Shown here piece by piece: positions 3,760-37,722 of a stretch of DNA of 64,000 nucleotides (position 1 is its first letter; every line of letters begins with the position of its first letter). The position numbers and the translations under genes were made by a program. The notes under the pieces are model-generated. The model searched no databases, was not told the origin of the DNA, and saw nothing but the letters and a program-made list of their open reading frames with translations. The stretch lies in NCBI GenBank assembly GCA_900100245.1, contig FNEU01000001.1:124001-188000 (forward strand), written 5' to 3'. The stretch comes from Lachnospiraceae bacterium G41 (GTDB lineage Bacteria > Bacillota > Clostridia > Lachnospirales > Lachnospiraceae).

Positions 3760-5247
3760 TTACTCTTCTGTTTCAACTTCTTTGAAGTTATCTTCTTTAA
3801 CTGTTGTGCTTTCATCAGCCTTTGCCTTAGCATTGGTTGCTGCAGAATATGCTACTCCGCCAAGCGCTCCGCTAAGGAGTGTCTTGATATCGATACCTAA
3901 TCCCTGAGTCAAACCTTCTGAGATCTGAGTTGTGGAATTAACGATATCTGATACCATCTTAGCTGAATTGCCTTCGCCGTACATAGTAATTTTGTCTACG
4001 CTTGCGAGAGGTTTAGCAACATTCTCTGCGATTTGAGGAAGTACTGAGAAGTACATTTCGAGGATTGAAGCCTCTTTCATCTTTGCCTGAGCAAGAGCTT
4101 TCTTTTCAATACCTTCTGCTTCAGCGATTGCTTTAGCTCTGATAGCTTCAGCTTCTGCAATACCTTTTACTCTGATAGCTTCAGCTTCCTGCTCTGCTGC
4201 ATACTTAGCTGCATCAGCCTGTGCACGCATAGCTTCTGCTTCCTGCTGTTTTCTATAGAGTTCAACGTCAGCCATCTGCTGTGCTTCGTATTTGTCTGCA
4301 TCAGCTTTCTTTCTGATTGTAGCAGCAAGTTCCTGTTCCTTAACGGAAGCCTCTTTCTGCTTGAGTTCAATCTCTCTTTCCTGTTTTGCAATGTCTGCGT
4401 TAGCAGATGCAACTTCGATGGATTTACGCTGTTCCTCTTCCTGAATACGATATGCTGCGTCAGCCTCAGCCTTCTTGATGTCGGCTTCTCTCTTAAGTTC
4501 AGCCTGCTTAATTGCGAGCTGGTTGTTTCTCTCAGCGATATCTGTTTCAGCATTAACGTTTGCTTCGTTTGCAAGCTGTTTTGCTTTAGCCTGCTCGATT
4601 GCTACGTCCTTTTCAGCCTGAGCACGTGCGATTGAAGCGCTCTTCTGAATCTGTGACATGTTGTCCTGACCAAGGGCATTGATGAGGTCGTTCTTATCTT
4701 CAATTCTCTGGATGTTACATGAAATAATCTCGATACCGAGGTTGTTCATGTCGATCTGAGCTTTAGTCTGAACTTCATCACCGAATTTCTTACGGTCATT
4801 ACAAAGTTCCTTAAGTGAAACCGTACCGATAATCTCACGCATGTTACCCTGAAGGGAATCAGTTAACGCTTCGGCTATCTGTTTCTCGTTCATGTTAAGG
4901 AAGTTCTTCATCGCAAGCTTGATGCCTTTATCGTCCGTCATGATACGAACTTTTGCGATTGCGTCGATATCTACACCGATGAAATCGAGTGTCGGGATAT
5001 AACCGTTTGTCTTGATATCGATAGACATCTGTTTTACGAGCAGCATATCTTTTCTTTCAAGGAAAGGTAATTTGATACCTGCTCTACCGATTAATACCTT
5101 GGGCTCTTTTTTGAAACCTGAAATAATATATGCTGTATCAGGGGGAGCCTTAACATAGCCTGATGCAATAATAACTGCCAACAAAGCTATAAAGATTAGT
5201 AATACTACTGCGATAACGCAAATTAATGTTCCAACTGTCTCGGGCAT
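3760..5247 (-). CDS. floT: Flotillin-like SPFH/band 7 protein
   Basis: Membrane scaffold protein of the flotillin family, thought to organise lipid microdomains. An N-terminal hydrophobic segment (about residues 6-30) is followed by an SPFH/PHB domain starting near YVKAPPDTAYIISGFKKEPKV. A long Ala/Glu/Lys/Gln-rich coiled coil then spans about residues 200-400, with AEAIRAKAIAEAEG-type repeats. The C-terminal region is Gly/Ala-rich and ends in an acidic tail. Length (495) is normal for bacterial FloT. The ATG has GGAGG at good spacing. It stands alone, with its own promoter and terminator. Confidence 0.92.
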   Translation of the reverse strand: MPETVGTLICVIAVVLLIFIALLAVIIASGYVKAPPDTAYIISGFKKEPKVLIGRAGIKLPFLERKDMLLVKQMSIDIKTNGYIPTLDFIGVDIDAIAKVRIMTDDKGIKLAMKNFLNMNEKQIAEALTDSLQGNMREIIGTVSLKELCNDRKKFGDEVQTKAQIDMNNLGIEIISCNIQRIEDKNDLINALGQDNMSQIQKSASIARAQAEKDVAIEQAKAKQLANEANVNAETDIAERNNQLAIKQAELKREADIKKAEADAAYRIQEEEQRKSIEVASANADIAKQEREIELKQKEASVKEQELAATIRKKADADKYEAQQMADVELYRKQQEAEAMRAQADAAKYAAEQEAEAIRVKGIAEAEAIRAKAIAEAEGIEKKALAQAKMKEASILEMYFSVLPQIAENVAKPLASVDKITMYGEGNSAKMVSDIVNSTTQISEGLTQGLGIDIKTLLSGALGGVAYSAATNAKAKADESTTVKEDNFKEVETEE

Positions 5248-29259: not shown

Positions 29260-30594
29260 TTATTGGGCACTTTTTACAGCCTCAATTATCATGTCTGCCA
29301 TATAGTCAATCATATCGTCAGTCATACCCGGATAAACGCCCACCCAGAATGAATTGTTCATGATAATATCGGTATTCGTATGCTCACCGACTATACGGTA
29401 TCCTCTGCCTTCTTTTCTCATTTGATCAAAGCAGGGATGCTTGGTAAGATTTCCGGCAAAAAGCATTCTCGTCTGAATACCCTTGGACTCGATGAAAGGA
29501 ACGACAAACGAACGCTTAACATCGCCTTTACAGGTAATCATAAATCCGAACCAGCTGGGATTTGAATTTTCACATGCTTCGGGCAAAATAACCTTATCTT
29601 CTATTACTTTTAATCTGTCATAAAGTCTCTTAAAATTCGCTCTTCTTTTCTCAACGAAAGAAGGGAATTTTTCAAGCTGTGCAACGCCTACGGCTGCCTG
29701 CATGTCAGTAGCCTTTAAATTATAGCCGAAGTGAGAATAAACGTATTTATGATCGTAGCCTAAAGGCAGTTCTCCGTACTGTCTGTCAAATCTGTGACCG
29801 CAGAGATTGTCTTTGCCCGAAGGACATGAGCAGTCTCTGCCCCAGTCGCGAAGAGACCTCATAATCTTGTGAAGCAAAGGATTGTCTGTATAAACTGCTC
29901 CGCCTTCGCCCATTGTCATATGATGAGGCGGATAAAAGGATGATGTTCCGATGTCTCCTATGGTACCGGTTAATTTACCTTCATATTCGGAACCCAGGGC
30001 ATCGCAGTTATCTTCGATAAGCCAGAGATTGTGCGCATCGCAGAATTCTTTAACGGTTTTTAAATCAAAAGGATTGCCTAACGTATGTGCTGCCATTACA
30101 ACTTTGGTTTTGTCTGATAAAGCCTTTTCAAGCATCGTGACATCCATGTTATATTGAGGGATTGTAACGTCAATAAATACAGGCACCACACCATACTGAA
30201 TCGCAGGCGTAACCGTGGTCGGAAAGCCTGCAGCTACGGTAATCATTTCATCACCGGGTTTAACCTGTCTCTCTCCTAAAAGAGGAGAAGTCAAAGTCAT
30301 GAAAGCGAGCAAATTGGCTGAAGATCCCGAATTAACAAGCGAGCAAAATCTGACATTTAAATACTCGGCAAACTTCTTTTCAAACGCTGCTGTAAATCTG
30401 CCTGAAGTAAGCCAGAATTCAAGTGCGGAATCAACCAAATTACACATCTCTTTATCATCAAAAACTCTAGATGCATAATTAATTCTGTCACCGGGCTCGA
30501 AAGGCTTCTTAGGAGCCTTAAACTGATTGTAATAATCTTCTACCAGTTTTAATATTTCATTTTTAGCTTCTGCTTCGTTAGTCCATCTGCTCAT
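29260..30594 (-). CDS. rfbH: CDP-4-keto-6-deoxy-D-glucose 3-dehydrase (E1)
   Basis: PMP- and [2Fe-2S]-dependent enzyme that removes the 3-hydroxyl of CDP-4-keto-6-deoxyglucose, giving 3,6-dideoxyhexoses. It has the DegT/AHBA aminotransferase fold (NSGSSANLLAF), but the PLP lysine is replaced by His in FYPPHHMTMGEGG (224/225), the hallmark of E1. The family's cluster motif C-X57-C-X1-C-X7-C is exact here: C197, C255, C257, C265. 444 residues is normal. Its substrate-forming partners are rfbG (31839) and rfbF (56112). The separate reductase (E3) that E1 usually needs is not in the window. Confidence 0.95.
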   Translation of the reverse strand: MSRWTNEAEAKNEILKLVEDYYNQFKAPKKPFEPGDRINYASRVFDDKEMCNLVDSALEFWLTSGRFTAAFEKKFAEYLNVRFCSLVNSGSSANLLAFMTLTSPLLGERQVKPGDEMITVAAGFPTTVTPAIQYGVVPVFIDVTIPQYNMDVTMLEKALSDKTKVVMAAHTLGNPFDLKTVKEFCDAHNLWLIEDNCDALGSEYEGKLTGTIGDIGTSSFYPPHHMTMGEGGAVYTDNPLLHKIMRSLRDWGRDCSCPSGKDNLCGHRFDRQYGELPLGYDHKYVYSHFGYNLKATDMQAAVGVAQLEKFPSFVEKRRANFKRLYDRLKVIEDKVILPEACENSNPSWFGFMITCKGDVKRSFVVPFIESKGIQTRMLFAGNLTKHPCFDQMRKEGRGYRIVGEHTNTDIIMNNSFWVGVYPGMTDDMIDYMADMIIEAVKSAQ

Positions 30595-30665
30595 GTTGTT
30601 TAATCCTTTTACACATTTTATTCTTTAAGATTATAACATTTTTAATTATAATTCACTATATTATT

Positions 30666-31721
30666 TTATGGTTTGTAATGTATTGCATGCAAATACATCC
30701 ATTCAATGTCTTTATTCATATTAGTAGGTATAAGTTTTACTTCGGGATTTTCGTTTTGAAATACCCTGAATAATTCGTCCGCAAAACCTTGTGCCATAAT
30801 TTCAGTATTTGAAAAATCTAATTCAACTTCTTTGAATTTATCTAATCTTTCAGCAATCCTTCTCGCCTGAGACCTTGCAATAGGATTTCTTTCCCGACAA
30901 GCTTCAAAAACTGGAATACGCGTTTTTATGAGCCCTTCATCAATATTCGAAAACTCATCAAAAACTTCTATAGCTTTTCTCGTTGTTTCATTTTCCAATT
31001 CCATAACTACTACCGTTCCTTTCTTTGTAAACTTCATAGCATACGAAAGCAAGTGAGAATTAATTAATTCAAAATCGCCCTCATAGCCCGTCTTGAAAAT
31101 AGCACCGTCTGAAACCAAAGCAAATTTATCAAGCATTTTAGACGTGAAAAAGATACCTTCTCCGGAATGATTTTTAGGGCATGAAGTAAACTTTCCTTTA
31201 TACAGTTCCAAAACAGCTTCTCTTAAATCATTTTCCTTTTTTGCATTTTTATATTTATAATCGAGAATACTTTTAAAAACCCCAATACCATCATCAACAA
31301 TTGTAATTTTTGTAAACAAACAACACATGGTAATATTTACAGTAACCTTTTTGCCAAAGGAATGCTCTATAGAATTATTAAATATCTCCGAAAGGGTATA
31401 ACTCCATATATTTAAAGCATTTTTATTTGTTTTAATTAGTGGTAAAACATCTTCATATATTATTTCATCATCATTTTCAGATAATTGTTTCAAATCATAT
31501 ACAAAATCATATCTTTCAAACACAAAATTATATTTACATTTCCTATCAGAATCTAAACAAATGTGATTATCTGAAATTTCTGAATCAATATATCTTTTTA
31601 CACTTGTCATTGATACGCCAAAAGCATCAGCAACTTTAGATACAACGAATTCATCATCTTCTTGGATTTTACGTAAAAGATATAATTTTATTTCATTTCT
31701 TTTATTCTCATCGAACGACAT
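30666..31721 (-). CDS. HTH - GHKL ATPase - STAS-like (DUF4325) protein
   Basis: 351 residues combining three modules. A winged-helix/HTH segment (about 8-50, FVVSKVADAFGVSMTSVKRYI) is followed by a histidine-kinase-type ATPase (about 90-245) with an N-box EIFNNSIEHS (112-121), a G1 box DDGIGV (143-148) and a G2 box HSGEGI (185-190). A STAS-like DUF4325 domain (about 267-340) then shows NPIARSQARRIAERLDKF...LDFSN...GFADELF. There is no phosphoacceptor His domain. The layout suggests a one-protein partner-switch regulator, which is inference. It has its own promoter right after the rfbG terminator and lies upstream of rfbH, so it may control this surface-sugar region. Confidence 0.8.
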   Translation of the reverse strand: MSFDENKRNEIKLYLLRKIQEDDEFVVSKVADAFGVSMTSVKRYIDSEISDNHICLDSDRKCKYNFVFERYDFVYDLKQLSENDDEIIYEDVLPLIKTNKNALNIWSYTLSEIFNNSIEHSFGKKVTVNITMCCLFTKITIVDDGIGVFKSILDYKYKNAKKENDLREAVLELYKGKFTSCPKNHSGEGIFFTSKMLDKFALVSDGAIFKTGYEGDFELINSHLLSYAMKFTKKGTVVVMELENETTRKAIEVFDEFSNIDEGLIKTRIPVFEACRERNPIARSQARRIAERLDKFKEVELDFSNTEIMAQGFADELFRVFQNENPEVKLIPTNMNKDIEWMYLHAIHYKP

Positions 31722-31758
31722 ATTTATTCCTCACTATGAATTTTGTATCGCTAACTTT

Positions 31759-31786
31759 ATTTTACTATTTACTAACCATAAGTCAA
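31759..31786 (-). promoter_or_regulatory. Promoter of the HTH-ATPase gene
   Basis: Minus strand TTGACT (31781-31786), 16 bases, TAAAAT (31759-31764), directly downstream of the rfbG terminator. Confidence 0.6.
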
Positions 31787-31791
31787 GCGAA

Positions 31792-31818
31792 ATAAAAAAA
31801 GGATGCATTAGCATCCTT
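31792..31818 (-). terminator. Terminator after rfbG
   Basis: Minus strand AAGGATGC-TAAT-GCATCCTT stem followed by TTTTTT, 20 bases past the rfbG stop. Confidence 0.88.
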
Positions 31819-31838
31819 TAAATAGAACATAAAGAATA

Positions 31839-32960
31839 TTATTCTTTAGTTATAAATTCTTTTATCTGTTTTAATGAGAAATCCCTGACATCTCCACCGC
31901 CAAGATAAACATCAGTCCATTCAATAATTTTATCAAGTGCTTCATTTATACTCCATCGTGGAGTCCAAGATAAAGCATTACGCACTTTGGATGAATCGAG
32001 TTTAAGAAAAGCTGCTTCATGAGGTCCGTTATCGCTTAAGTTTTTCCAGCATAATTCCTTCATCTTGCAATTATCTTTGTTACTCTGGTATTTATTCCAT
32101 TTGTCGCAGAATTTTGTAACCATATCTCCAGTAGTAATGCAGTCACAATCATTCGGACCTACATTATAAGCACCTGCAAACGAAGGATTATTGAATTGTT
32201 CCATTGCAACCGAAAGATACACAAATAAAGGCTCCAGCACATGCTGATAAGGTCTGATAGAGAAGGGATTTCGAACAATAATATCCTTTCCTGCTTCTAT
32301 TGCACGAACACAGTCGGGAATAATACGGTCATTAGCAAAATCGCCACCGCCAATCACATTTCCTGCACGACATGTGCTGATTGAAACAATTCTTCCATCG
32401 CTCATCTGACCTGATTCACCACCAAAGAATGAATTCTTATAGGAGTAAGTCACAAGTTCAGAACAGGATTTTGAATTCGAATAAGGATCAAAACCACAGA
32501 GTTCTTCATTTTCTTTGAATGATTCATTTAACTCACGATTAAGATAAACTTTGTCTGTAGTAACATTTACAAAACTCTTTACAGAATCAGTCAGACGTAC
32601 ACATTCTAAAACATTTACTGTGCCCATCACATTAACATCATATGTATAAACAGGCTCTTTATAGGAATCACGTACAATTGGCTGCGCAGCCATATGAATA
32701 ACTATCTCGGGCTTAACCTGATTGAATACATATTTTAAAGTATCCAAATCTCTCACATCTCCGGTAAAATGTGTAATCATGCTCTTAATATCGCAAAGTT
32801 CAAACAACGAAGGATTTGTAGGAGCATTCAAAGAATATCCATACACATCAGCATCAAGAGACTCAAGCAAAAGGCAAATCCAAGATCCCTTAAAACCTGT
32901 GTGTCCGGTTATTAATACTTTTTTATTTTTATAAAATGATTTGAGTTTTTCTATATCCAT
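31839..32960 (-). CDS. rfbG: CDP-glucose 4,6-dehydratase
   Basis: SDR enzyme making CDP-4-keto-6-deoxyglucose from CDP-glucose. The nucleotide loop is ITGHTGFKGSW, which is characteristic of RfbG rather than RmlB. VTTDKVYLN and the catalytic YSNSK (YxxxK) follow. The C-terminal half has PWTPRWSINEAL-type closure. The frame extends to a GTG at 32966; the ATG at 32960 is five bases after GGGG. It supplies RfbH; the first enzyme, RfbF, is 23 kb away at 56112-56894. Confidence 0.94.
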   Translation of the reverse strand: MDIEKLKSFYKNKKVLITGHTGFKGSWICLLLESLDADVYGYSLNAPTNPSLFELCDIKSMITHFTGDVRDLDTLKYVFNQVKPEIVIHMAAQPIVRDSYKEPVYTYDVNVMGTVNVLECVRLTDSVKSFVNVTTDKVYLNRELNESFKENEELCGFDPYSNSKSCSELVTYSYKNSFFGGESGQMSDGRIVSISTCRAGNVIGGGDFANDRIIPDCVRAIEAGKDIIVRNPFSIRPYQHVLEPLFVYLSVAMEQFNNPSFAGAYNVGPNDCDCITTGDMVTKFCDKWNKYQSNKDNCKMKELCWKNLSDNGPHEAAFLKLDSSKVRNALSWTPRWSINEALDKIIEWTDVYLGGGDVRDFSLKQIKEFITKE

Positions 32961-32985
32961 AATCACCCCAATTAATCCATAAAGT

Positions 32986-34304: not shown

Positions 34305-35600
34305 TTAAATTTCATCAATAAGCGTAATAATCTTACTTATAGGCATAAGTCTGTCATCAACTTCTTTTGCACGATGATATTTTAATATATCCTCGGCGGT
34401 CTGCTGCATTGCAGGAAATGCTGAACGCGTAAGCTGGTTGGCGTAAATAACAACATTTACTCCGTGCTCGGACAATTCATCTTCAGTAATCGAATTAAAA
34501 CTCGTAGGAACGACTACAATAGGCGTAGTCTTATCTTCCTCACGGAATTTATCACAGAATTCAAGGATTTCCGAAGGGTCTTTTTGCCTCGAGTGAATCA
34601 TGATGCCGTCAGCACCTGCTTCAACGAACGCTTTGGCTCTCAGAAGAGCGTCTTCCATTCCCTTTTCGAGAATCAGAGACTCAATTCGGGCAATAATCAT
34701 AAAATCATCAGTAAGCTGTGCTTTTTTGCCTGCCGAAATTTTAGCGCTAAACTCTTCTATCGAAGCCTGCGTCTGTTCAACTTCAGTTCCGAACAGTGAG
34801 TTCTTTTTAAGTCCGGTCTTATCTTCTATAATCACAGCACTGACGCCTAATCTTTCGAGGCTTCGAACTGTATATACAAAATGCTCGGTCAGTCCACCTG
34901 TATCTCCGTCAAATATTATAGGCTTGGTCGTAACTTCCGTAATATCTTCAATCGTTCTAAAACGGCTTGTCATATCTACGAGCTCGATATCTGGCTTTCC
35001 CTTTGCTGTCGAATCACAAAGAGACGAAATCCACATCGCATCAAACTGATCGAGTTTACCGTCGCATTCAACTACAGTTTTTTCAACAATAAGTCCTGTA
35101 AGACCGCTGTGCGCTTCCATTGCTTTTACGATAGGAGTCATCTTTAATAAATCATGCAGGCGTTTTCTCCTGTATTCAGGCATGGCGAGTTTTTCCCTGA
35201 GCTGTAAGTCTATTTTTCTTACCTTTTCATTATAAGTATAAGGAACATCGATTAGTTCGCCGCCATATTCTTTTATGAGTTCTTCTACGTGGGTTCGGAT
35301 GGTCTTTTCGGGACCGGTAACCCAGTTGTCACCATGGATGATATAATCGGGCTTTATCAGACTTATCACATCATCATAAAGCATATCGTCCTGAATCACG
35401 ACTTCATCTACGCCCTCGAGTGAACGGTAGAGTTTCACTCGTTCATCCTGGCTGACCGTCGGAAATTTGTTGTAGCGAATTAAGGCTTTGTCAGACAAAG
35501 CGCCTATAATCACTCGGCCGTATTTCCGAGTCTCATTAACAATATTCAAATGTCCTTCATGAATTACATCGGTGCAAAAACATGTATATGCTGTCTTCAT
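34305..35600 (-). CDS. pepM: Cytidylyltransferase - phosphoenolpyruvate mutase fusion
   Basis: The C-terminal domain (about 150-431) is PEP mutase, forming the C-P bond of phosphonopyruvate. FDAMW, FDGDTGG (D231) and the signature EDKTGLKKNS (259-268) are all present. The N-terminal domain (1-135) is a nucleotidyltransferase of the TagD/cytidylyltransferase type, with HEGH (14-17) as its HxGH motif. This order is that of Fom1 in fosfomycin synthesis, where the N-terminal domain attaches CMP to a phosphonate. Here the neighbouring transaminase and decarboxylase point to 2-aminoethylphosphonate as product. AAAGGA precedes the ATG. Confidence 0.93.
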   Translation of the reverse strand: MKTAYTCFCTDVIHEGHLNIVNETRKYGRVIIGALSDKALIRYNKFPTVSQDERVKLYRSLEGVDEVVIQDDMLYDDVISLIKPDYIIHGDNWVTGPEKTIRTHVEELIKEYGGELIDVPYTYNEKVRKIDLQLREKLAMPEYRRKRLHDLLKMTPIVKAMEAHSGLTGLIVEKTVVECDGKLDQFDAMWISSLCDSTAKGKPDIELVDMTSRFRTIEDITEVTTKPIIFDGDTGGLTEHFVYTVRSLERLGVSAVIIEDKTGLKKNSLFGTEVEQTQASIEEFSAKISAGKKAQLTDDFMIIARIESLILEKGMEDALLRAKAFVEAGADGIMIHSRQKDPSEILEFCDKFREEDKTTPIVVVPTSFNSITEDELSEHGVNVVIYANQLTRSAFPAMQQTAEDILKYHRAKEVDDRLMPISKIITLIDEI

Positions 35601-36831: not shown

Positions 36832-37722
36832 TTATACATCATAAGTTTTATCAATCGCTTTAAGTTCATTAAATGTGTCTATTTCAACAATATCTTCATC
36901 ACGACATTCCCTAACTTCTACGGCATAATGGTCTTTCTTATATACAAGCGGTACCTGTTCCCAATAACGCTCTTTCCCGCCCGGAGACGAATAAACCTTA
37001 GGAATATCATCCGCAAGTTTTTTTCCGTCCTCTTCGCTCCAGTAGGAAATACCAACCATCTGGTAACAATCAATACCGCCAACCTTCTCTTCTTTGATAA
37101 TTCCGTCCTTTACCATAAAGCACCAGTCATCGGTTCTTTCCTTGGGAATAGTAAGAAAATCTGAAGTGTAATGATATTTCTTAATAATATCAGGATTGGA
37201 CAAATACAAATCTGCTTCGAATACGTAAGCGTTAGATAATAAGTTCCTAGCAATCATTCCTGAACTAATATTATTCGCTTCGTTGTACACTGGATTTTCC
37301 AGAAACTTAATCATTGGATACTTATATAAAAGCTGATCAAACTGTTCAGCCAGATAGCCACGAACTATATAAATCTCATTAATCCCCGCCTGAAGACAAG
37401 CATCTAAAAGAGTATCAATGATACGTGTACCTTTTACTCTCACTAACGGCTTAGGAGTATTAAGAGTAATAGGCGCTAACCTGGAACCAAAGCCTGCAGC
37501 AATAAAAATAGCTCTTTTAGCGCGATAAGGTTCAAGCGCCAAAAGACCTTCTTTAGTTATCTTACCGTCTTTCATCAATCCGTTATCGTTCAATTCTTTC
37601 ACGATTTTGTTCACCGAGCCAAGAGAATGAACACTTTTATCCTTAATTTCTCTCTGAGATAAAGGTTCTTCTGAAGAAGCTAAAATTTCGAGTATATCAA
37701 ATTGTTTTCTTGAAATAGACAT
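36832..37722 (-). CDS. HTH-fused nucleotidyltransferase, LicC/PntC-like
   Basis: Residues 1-65 are a winged-helix domain (QFDILEILASSEEPLSQREIKDKSVHSLGSVNKIVKEL). Residues about 68-296 are a nucleotidyltransferase with AAGFGSRLAPITLNTPKPLVRV, NPVYNEANNISSGM and the metal-binding EADLYLS. This two-part design is seen in phosphocholine cytidylyltransferases of the LicC type. In a phosphonate operon the likelier substrate is 2-aminoethylphosphonate, giving CMP-AEP as PntC does; that is inference. It is the first gene of the phosphonate operon, 17 bases before phnW. No LicD-type transferase is in the window. Confidence 0.85.
   Translation of the reverse strand: MSISRKQFDILEILASSEEPLSQREIKDKSVHSLGSVNKIVKELNDNGLMKDGKITKEGLLALEPYRAKRAIFIAAGFGSRLAPITLNTPKPLVRVKGTRIIDTLLDACLQAGINEIYIVRGYLAEQFDQLLYKYPMIKFLENPVYNEANNISSGMIARNLLSNAYVFEADLYLSNPDIIKKYHYTSDFLTIPKERTDDWCFMVKDGIIKEEKVGGIDCYQMVGISYWSEEDGKKLADDIPKVYSSPGGKERYWEQVPLVYKKDHYAVEVRECRDEDIVEIDTFNELKAIDKTYDV

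Follow-up and report, generated by a model that had tools for sequence, protein, structure and literature searches.

A solitary HTH-GHKL-DUF4325 protein family with likely self-regulation through direct repeats in its own promoter and a STAS-like domain lacking the usual phosphate acceptor

A gene on the minus strand of Lachnospiraceae bacterium G41 (30666..31721 of the window, i.e., of the whole 64,000-nucleotide stretch of DNA that was analysed) encodes a protein in which a winged HTH, a GHKL ATPase and a STAS-like DUF4325 domain are joined. We consider this protein to be probably an autorepressor in which the ATPase and STAS domains together sense a signal without phosphorylation of the STAS domain. 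The data suggest that it mainly switches its own gene and not the adjoining sugar genes.

Few bacterial switches have been studied as well as the pairing of a kinase with a STAS partner. Only in 2026 was this type of switch extended to DNA-binding repressors of immunity genes, with CapK/CapS (PMC13373217). The family described here brings such parts together in a single chain; it has lost the phosphate acceptor, and its operator is readable from sequence. It may serve as a compact test of GHKL-STAS switching without phosphoryl transfer, and its matched HTH and operator sequences are ready to be used as a set. Our literature search, which left most subscription papers outside, found no description of the HTH-GHKL-DUF4325 family or its operator. 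DUF4325 itself gets passing mention in a table of a Francisella prophage and among fungal genes listed as transferred; a prophage list for Paenibacillus larvae uses the term STAS-like.

Domain composition and fold

The gene starts with ATG and is a single open reading frame of 351 amino acids, to which none of the NCBIfam and PADLOC models gave a match. The original prediction of an HTH, an ATPase with intact N, G1 and G2 boxes and a DUF4325 domain in one chain was borne out by Pfam, by AlphaFold2 and by the conservation of the boxes in 84/84 sequences. The AlphaFold2 model of the whole protein, based on an alignment of 84 homologues, has a mean pLDDT of 94.8 and a pTM of 0.90.

The winged HTH (residues 1-66; 31524..31721, minus strand) was assigned from this model and from weak PDB profile matches. 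In the model, helices cover residues 5-20, 26-34 and 38-50, with wing strands at 54-56 and 64-66; the predicted recognition helix (about residues 38-50) contains the sequence SMTSVKRYI. A profile of the N-terminal alignment gave weak PDB matches to MarR/Lrp-type regulators (best E 0.0008), and in Pfam the HTH stayed below significance, with DUF977 (E 0.083) as best match and HTH_7 at E 0.25.

Residues 67-247 (30981..31523, minus strand) form a GHKL domain of the SpoIIAB/RsbW type according to structural alignment and residue counts. Its HATPase_c match in Pfam (residues 109-180, E 1.1e-5, 26.2 bits) is barely below the cut-off of 26.4. The N box (E112..N115 N116..H120), which contains the presumed catalytic Glu112, the G1 box (D143xG145xG147) and the G2 box (G187xG189) are invariant in 84/84 homologues. 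Alignment with SpoIIAB (1tid_C, 134 aa) by VIA-align gave a Z of 14.9 and an rmsd of 1.9 over 126 aligned residues, and the top nine structural matches are SpoIIAB, RsbW and UsfX entries (Z 14.9 to 12.0). The modelled fold is of the anti-sigma-kinase type.

The STAS-like DUF4325 domain (residues about 265-348; 30678..30929, minus strand) was delimited from Pfam, a domain model, STAS matches and residue counts. The PF14213 match itself covers residues 285-339 (E 4.9e-16, 58.6 bits against a cut-off of 23). When modelled alone (pLDDT 87.6), the C-terminal domain found mostly STAS domains as structural matches, with RsbS first (Z 8.1) and RsbV (7.7) and SpoIIAA (7.0) among the next; these Z values are modest and the list is consistent. 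Judged from the model, the domain is a STAS fold. CapS and VapS were absent from the VIA-align and Foldseek lists, an absence that carries no weight.

Distribution of the family

The joining of the three domains is a family trait and not a chance reading frame, since matches were found in 33 of 397 genomes in the family-level survey and at least 529 loci were confirmed in species genomes by a scan with a 29-sequence alignment (A1). The host genome has a single copy, and six of the 31 genomes of the genus gave a match, five of them full-length and one a fragment. From the at least 529 loci, 80 were kept, which belong mostly to Lachnospiraceae and other Clostridia and further to Burkholderiaceae, Rhodanobacter, a Coxiellaceae chromosome, Planctomycetota, Anaerolineae, Polyangia, Omnitrophota and Lentisphaerae. 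Relatives were also found at 25 loci on viral contigs when an alignment was used for the scan; the window protein alone found nothing there. Likewise, tblastn searches of phage and plasmid records gave no hits, whether run with the window protein or, once each, with two relatives, and a fold search of BFVD was empty at an E threshold of 0.001.

The resulting 105 loci yielded 104 focal reading frames (L116 and L163 had none and L144 had two pieces). Six fell short of the full profile and were dropped, and 83 of the remaining 98 were combined with the window protein in alignment A2 (n = 84), the 15 omitted by eye being mostly near-duplicates.

In the sister genome G009, a decayed C-terminal remnant of about 55 residues (L012:7864-8028, 87% identical) sits syntenic with the intact gene of G015 (L010), and nothing more of the gene was found there. 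The HTH-GHKL-DUF4325 gene, which occurs here and there among gut bacteria, is patchy, dispensable and solitary.

Direct repeats in the promoter

The rfbG terminator (31798..31819, minus strand) insulates the gene from upstream. A sigma-70-like promoter scan placed a -35 element TTGACT at 31781..31786 and a -10 element TAAAAT at 31759..31764 (both minus strand), separated by a 16-bp spacer. The scan yielded 6 sites against a shuffle mean of 8.8 and so no excess, but this promoter (TTGACT-16-TAAAAT, 31786-31759) is conserved in L008, which carries a 75%-identical orthologue. A promoter of its own between the rfbG terminator and rfbH, which follows at 30594, had been proposed for the gene, and this proposal is upheld by the conservation in L008.

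Three predicted operator units are arranged along this promoter on the minus strand. Unit 1, TATGGTT (31774..31780), directly follows the -35 element; unit 2, TAAAGTT (31753..31759), lies 21 bp past unit 1 and overlaps the end of the -10 element. A weaker, probable unit 3, CATAGTG (31732..31738), lies another 21 bp past unit 2 and has TATAGTG as its L008 counterpart. All three units also occur in L008. Units that abut the -35 element, overlap the -10 element and follow it have the layout predicted for a self-repressor.

Since the direct repeat was first spotted by eye and the first k-mer counts were therefore post hoc, a motif-free lag test was used, which counts, lag by lag, how many promoters contain a 7-bp repeat (one mismatch) of whatever sequence. 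For this purpose 118 upstream regions were reduced to 100 at 80% protein identity; because the methionine closest to where the profile begins was taken as the start codon, the ends of some upstream regions may be misplaced. The controls were 471 other promoters of the same loci. A repeat at lag 21 or 22 was found in 88 of the 100 family promoters and in 140 of the 471 controls (Fisher p 5.8e-28), the measure being lax in that about 30% of the controls show such a repeat. With lag 21 alone the counts were 70/100 and 91/471. Lags 42-44 were raised as well (36, 24 and 21% vs 15, 13 and 13%), third operator units being seen as the rise at lag 42, and the remaining lags were close to the controls. 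The other 12 family promoters had no repeat at the threshold used.

The sequence TATAGTT occurs in 47 of the 118 upstream regions (3.1 expected from shuffles) and is strand-oriented, its reverse complement being present in 8/118. Of the exact TATAGTT pairs, 14 are spaced by 21 bp, two by 22 bp and one by 13 bp. A palindromic operator was rejected, as the best palindrome family covered 6 loci vs 3-5 in shuffles.

The units vary with the recognition helix. TATAGTT-like units go with the xxRRY (23/24) and YRY (16/21) helix classes, ACGAATA-like units with VHxY (16/25), TTTGGAA-like units with VYNY (6/7) and TTGACAA-like units, which overlap the -35 consensus, with RQA (10/14); the classes and units were picked after viewing the lag-scan data, and both helix class and unit track common descent, which makes their match only partly independent as evidence. 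The nine promoters (of 100) that fall outside every helix class are nearly devoid of the listed units. Operator-like repeats in the gene's own promoter that go with the HTH class, as expected of an autoregulated repressor, are what the 88/100 vs 140/471 comparison and the helix classes together revealed. Because the direct-repeat operator with its 21/22-bp spacing occurs family-wide in the gene's own promoter, self-regulation via these repeats is likely.

Elsewhere in the genome the pattern is rare. Two units spaced 21 bp apart gave two exact matches, one in the gene's own promoter and one within a coding sequence, which we take to encode an RNase J-like protein; read backwards, the pattern gave five matches. 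Twelve carrier genomes contained 13 matches, five of them at own promoters, and eight non-carriers contained four, so there is no excess, with the strict pattern recovering the own promoter in only 5 of the 12 carrier genomes searched. With up to two mismatches allowed, the window contained 32 matches vs 16.5 expected, exceeding all 100 shuffles in a window of uneven composition, so further weak operator sites there are possible.

Neighbouring genes

Among 30 loci with a full or near-full-length copy, the commonest neighbour cluster other than that of the window occurs in nine. Across the 105 further loci (80 genomic and 25 viral, some of the genomic ones being contigs already among the 30), the most widespread cluster was found in 10; its representative is presumably an ABC-transporter ATPase. 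Operon membership was rejected: of 89 downstream genes, 55 share the strand of the focal gene, vs 565 of 810 other adjacent pairs, which is no enrichment and so no sign of an operon. PADLOC-matching families, counted as families and not as proteins, numbered 45 in 144 near neighbours (of 306 eligible) vs 79 in 148 proteins (of 190) from random stretches. The idea of a defence island was rejected, as neighbours showed no excess of matches over random stretches.

With no neighbour recurring in the 30 and 105 loci and no PADLOC enrichment, a fixed neighbour partner of any kind is thus absent, be it a defence nuclease or a sugar gene. A comparison of neighbourhoods had been foreseen as a way to uncover a fixed unrelated partner such as a defence nuclease; in these loci it did not. 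A sigma factor or other switch partner also did not recur among the neighbours in the 30 and 105 loci, although one encoded at a distance may exist, and the arrangement of capK, then capS, then an immune operon was absent, there being no recurring neighbour and no PADLOC enrichment.

These observations bear on a reading in which the protein would be a CapK-like kinase acting in trans: self-repressed until a signal, e.g., single-stranded DNA, leads it to phosphorylate another STAS protein or cell protein in a stress or phage response. The invariant Glu112 and N, G1 and G2 boxes (84/84) are consistent with this, as is the kinase activity of CapK and VapK, relatives by domain make-up. The 25 relatives on viral contigs also fit, with integrase families leading their neighbour list (2-4 of 118 proteins each). 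On the other hand, no partner gene recurs in the 30 and 105 loci, and the PADLOC counts of 45 in 144 neighbours vs 79 in 148 random-stretch proteins do not point to a defence role. We regard a kinase acting in trans as rather unlikely; it is compatible with self-repression and does not exclude it.

Surface-sugar and phosphonate genes

According to NCBIfam, the gene is flanked by RfbH (29260-30594) and a CDP-glucose 4,6-dehydratase (RfbG, 31839-32966), after which come a phosphonopyruvate decarboxylase, a PEP mutase and a 2-aminoethylphosphonate aminotransferase. The original prediction held that the protein is a local regulator of these surrounding surface-sugar and phosphonate genes. Its place between rfbG and rfbH in both the window and the 75%-identical orthologue locus L008 favors this view, and no terminator was found between the gene and rfbH. 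However, upstream of rfbH, rfbG and three further cluster genes no operator pair with fewer than three mismatches was present (best 3-5), and elsewhere the pattern lies in a coding sequence. An extended -10 of rfbH, read by eye as TGTTATAAT (30630..30638, minus strand), is conserved as TGCTATAAT in L008, and therefore rfbH probably has its own promoter. Among the 30 loci, the rfbH/rfbG/phosphonate context is found, besides the window, only in the nearest orthologue (L008, genome G007), the 28 other full-length loci having different neighbours, and downstream genes show no same-strand enrichment (55/89 vs 565/810). Because the gene is patchy (33/397) and has no fixed neighbour, and because rfbH has its own conserved extended -10, control of the sugar and phosphonate genes is unsupported, and we consider it very unlikely.

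Nine other genomes of the genus have a close RfbH. Within up to 1.5 kb on their flanks these loci have neither rfbG nor the focal gene, and an empty rfbG-rfbH site was therefore not found among them.

Other features of this region may be mentioned. The 431-aa chain at 34305-35600 joins a cytidylyltransferase-like part at its N-terminus to a PEP mutase at its C-terminus, i.e., two phosphonate-building steps in one chain. At 36832-37722 a nucleotidyltransferase-like protein is encoded, of which an N-terminal stretch weakly resembles MarR-type EPS-associated regulators. The G+C content drops from about 0.35-0.40 to 0.24-0.35 in the last 26 kb of the window (38000-64000), which suggests foreign DNA adjoining the phosphonate genes.

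The STAS acceptor position

In CapS, VapS and SpoIIAA a serine of the STAS protein is phosphorylated by the kinase, and in CapS this serine is in the second helix (PMC13373217). In the AlphaFold2 model of the window protein, the helix after the central strand of the STAS domain begins at Gln311, and residue counts place the acceptor position at Gln311-Gly312 (encoded on the minus strand). Among the 84 sequences, position 311 is Q in 81, R in two and P in one, and position 312 is G in 56 and A in 28, so a Ser or Thr at the N-terminus of STAS helix 2, as in canonical partner switches, occurs in 0/84. DUF4325 proteins outside the family, in contrast, have a Ser at one of the two positions in 13 of 14 cases, as read off alignments of the 14 alignable members of a set of 16 loci from the PF14213 search. 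Among PDB sequences, the C-terminal profile matched Escherichia VapS (9z7o) best, if weakly (E 0.31), with a VapS serine opposite Gln311; this serine would be Ser48 if the 9z7o chain carries an 18-residue tag.

Since the acceptor is missing in 84/84, an ordinary partner-switch phosphorylation inside the chain is unlikely. The ATP boxes, like Glu112, do not vary, and the invariant Ser284 is a possible alternative phosphate acceptor. A complete one-chain partner switch, in which the GHKL domain would phosphorylate its own STAS domain and so free or block DNA binding, is hardly credible: the domain make-up, the anti-sigma-kinase fold, the adjoining or overlapping GHKL and DUF4325 genes of other lineages and the precedent of Rv1364c, which does so in cis (PMC7693655), argue for it, whereas the residues found at 311 and 312 (Q/R/P and G/A in 84/84, against Ser in 13/14 non-family DUF4325 proteins) argue against it, even if the VapS alignment behind this comparison is weak (E 0.31) and Ser284 could still take the phosphate. 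Of the self-contained switch that had been proposed, the self-contained regulator with its own promoter and repeats stands, and the in-chain phosphorylation switch (0/84 Ser/Thr) lacks support.

Proposed mechanism and known systems

For the autorepressor that we favor, we propose that the winged HTHs of several protomers bind the direct repeats, which are 21 bp or two helical turns apart, so that the protomers would assemble head-to-tail on one face of the DNA. As the repeats overlap and follow the gene's own promoter, the bound gene would be almost silent. The SpoIIAB-type GHKL domain with the attached STAS domain would be the sensor: its nucleotide state or a ligand may alter the seating of the STAS domain on the GHKL domain and hence the stacking of protomers on DNA. 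The gene would move, and be lost, as a solitary unit together with its operator. A gene that controls only itself, as the promoter repeats suggest, leaves the benefit unexplained; there is no evident second target in the genome, so the benefit to the cell would have to come from the de-repressed protein itself.

A more far-reaching and tentative proposal, to which we give well under even chances, is that the family comprises widespread, solitary, mobile one-protein switches, in which an anti-sigma-type kinase domain with a permanently attached STAS pseudo-substrate that cannot be phosphorylated gates the head-to-tail assembly of a winged-HTH repressor on the 21-bp direct repeats of its own promoter. 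It would be a one-gene counterpart of CapK/CapS, released from the DNA by ATP binding or single-stranded DNA and not by phosphorylation.

The autorepressor mechanism would differ from that of CapK/CapS, SpoIIAB/SpoIIAA and VapK/VapS because the STAS domain is not phosphorylatable at the usual place. The assumption that kinase and STAS antagonist are separate in known switches was partly wrong, since Rv1364c of M. tuberculosis carries GHKL and STAS in one chain together with sensor and PP2C domains (PMC7693655), and GHKL/STAS pairs that regulate DNA binding are known from CapK/CapS. Rv1364c shares the GHKL-STAS chain with the window protein, but it has a sensor and a PP2C phosphatase, its STAS domain is phosphorylated and no HTH is named for it.

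CapK/CapS (EMBO J 2026, PMC13373217) also joins HTH, STAS and an anti-sigma-kinase type GHKL for control of DNA binding, and CapS represses its own promoter. CapK is an HTH-STAS-GHKL protein with CapS as a separate STAS-wHTH repressor, whereas the window protein is one HTH-GHKL-STAS chain. Furthermore, CapS recognises palindromes built of TTAA half-sites, takes its phosphate on Ser54 and in most cases precedes immune operons, whereas the window family has predicted 21-bp direct repeats, no acceptor serine and no immune operon. Judged by sequence, the window protein works like CapK/CapS in joining GHKL-STAS to an HTH, yet it is not a member, because of the different domain order, the direct repeats and the lack of both acceptor and immune operon.

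VapK, VapS and VapC (PMC13373217) resemble the window protein in combining a GHKL kinase with a STAS partner, but VapS is a separate protein and the STAS domain of the window protein is fused to the kinase domain; as no neighbour recurs, the window family has no VapC-like partner. In SpoIIAB/SpoIIAA, RsbW/RsbV and UsfX/RsfB, the GHKL fold is similar (Z 14.9 for SpoIIAB, about 12 for RsbW and UsfX) and the C-terminal domain shares the STAS fold of RsbS, RsbV and SpoIIAA. These are separate proteins that act on a sigma factor, whereas the window protein adds an HTH and is without the acceptor serine.

GHKL and DUF4325 in other lineages

A PF14213 search in the phylum gave hits in 20 of 398 genomes. 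Four of the 20 regions have both domains in one chain, two of the window's kind (L088, L101) and two longer (L096, L097). In three regions (L091, L098, L100) a clear GHKL gene overlaps or directly precedes a stand-alone DUF4325 gene, and two (L094, L099) have a weak GHKL neighbour, Pfam being blank for that of L099. By the same test, 10 of the 20 have no GHKL neighbour. The remaining region, L093, holds a broken family copy with GHKL and DUF4325 pieces in separate frames (4654-5242).

The longer chains (L096:4874-6136 and L097:3943-5229) are GHKL-DUF4325 proteins of 420-430 aa in which a longer N-terminal part replaces the HTH; the L097 gene overlaps another that encodes Fic and DeoR-type HTH domains. 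At L098:4028-5220, a 298-aa protein with weak STAS and GHKL matches overlaps a stand-alone DUF4325 gene, forming a VapK/VapS-like pair. Downstream of this pair is an amidase gene on the opposite strand and no PIN toxin gene. The weak STAS match of the L098 kinase is N-terminal, which is the domain order of published VapK.
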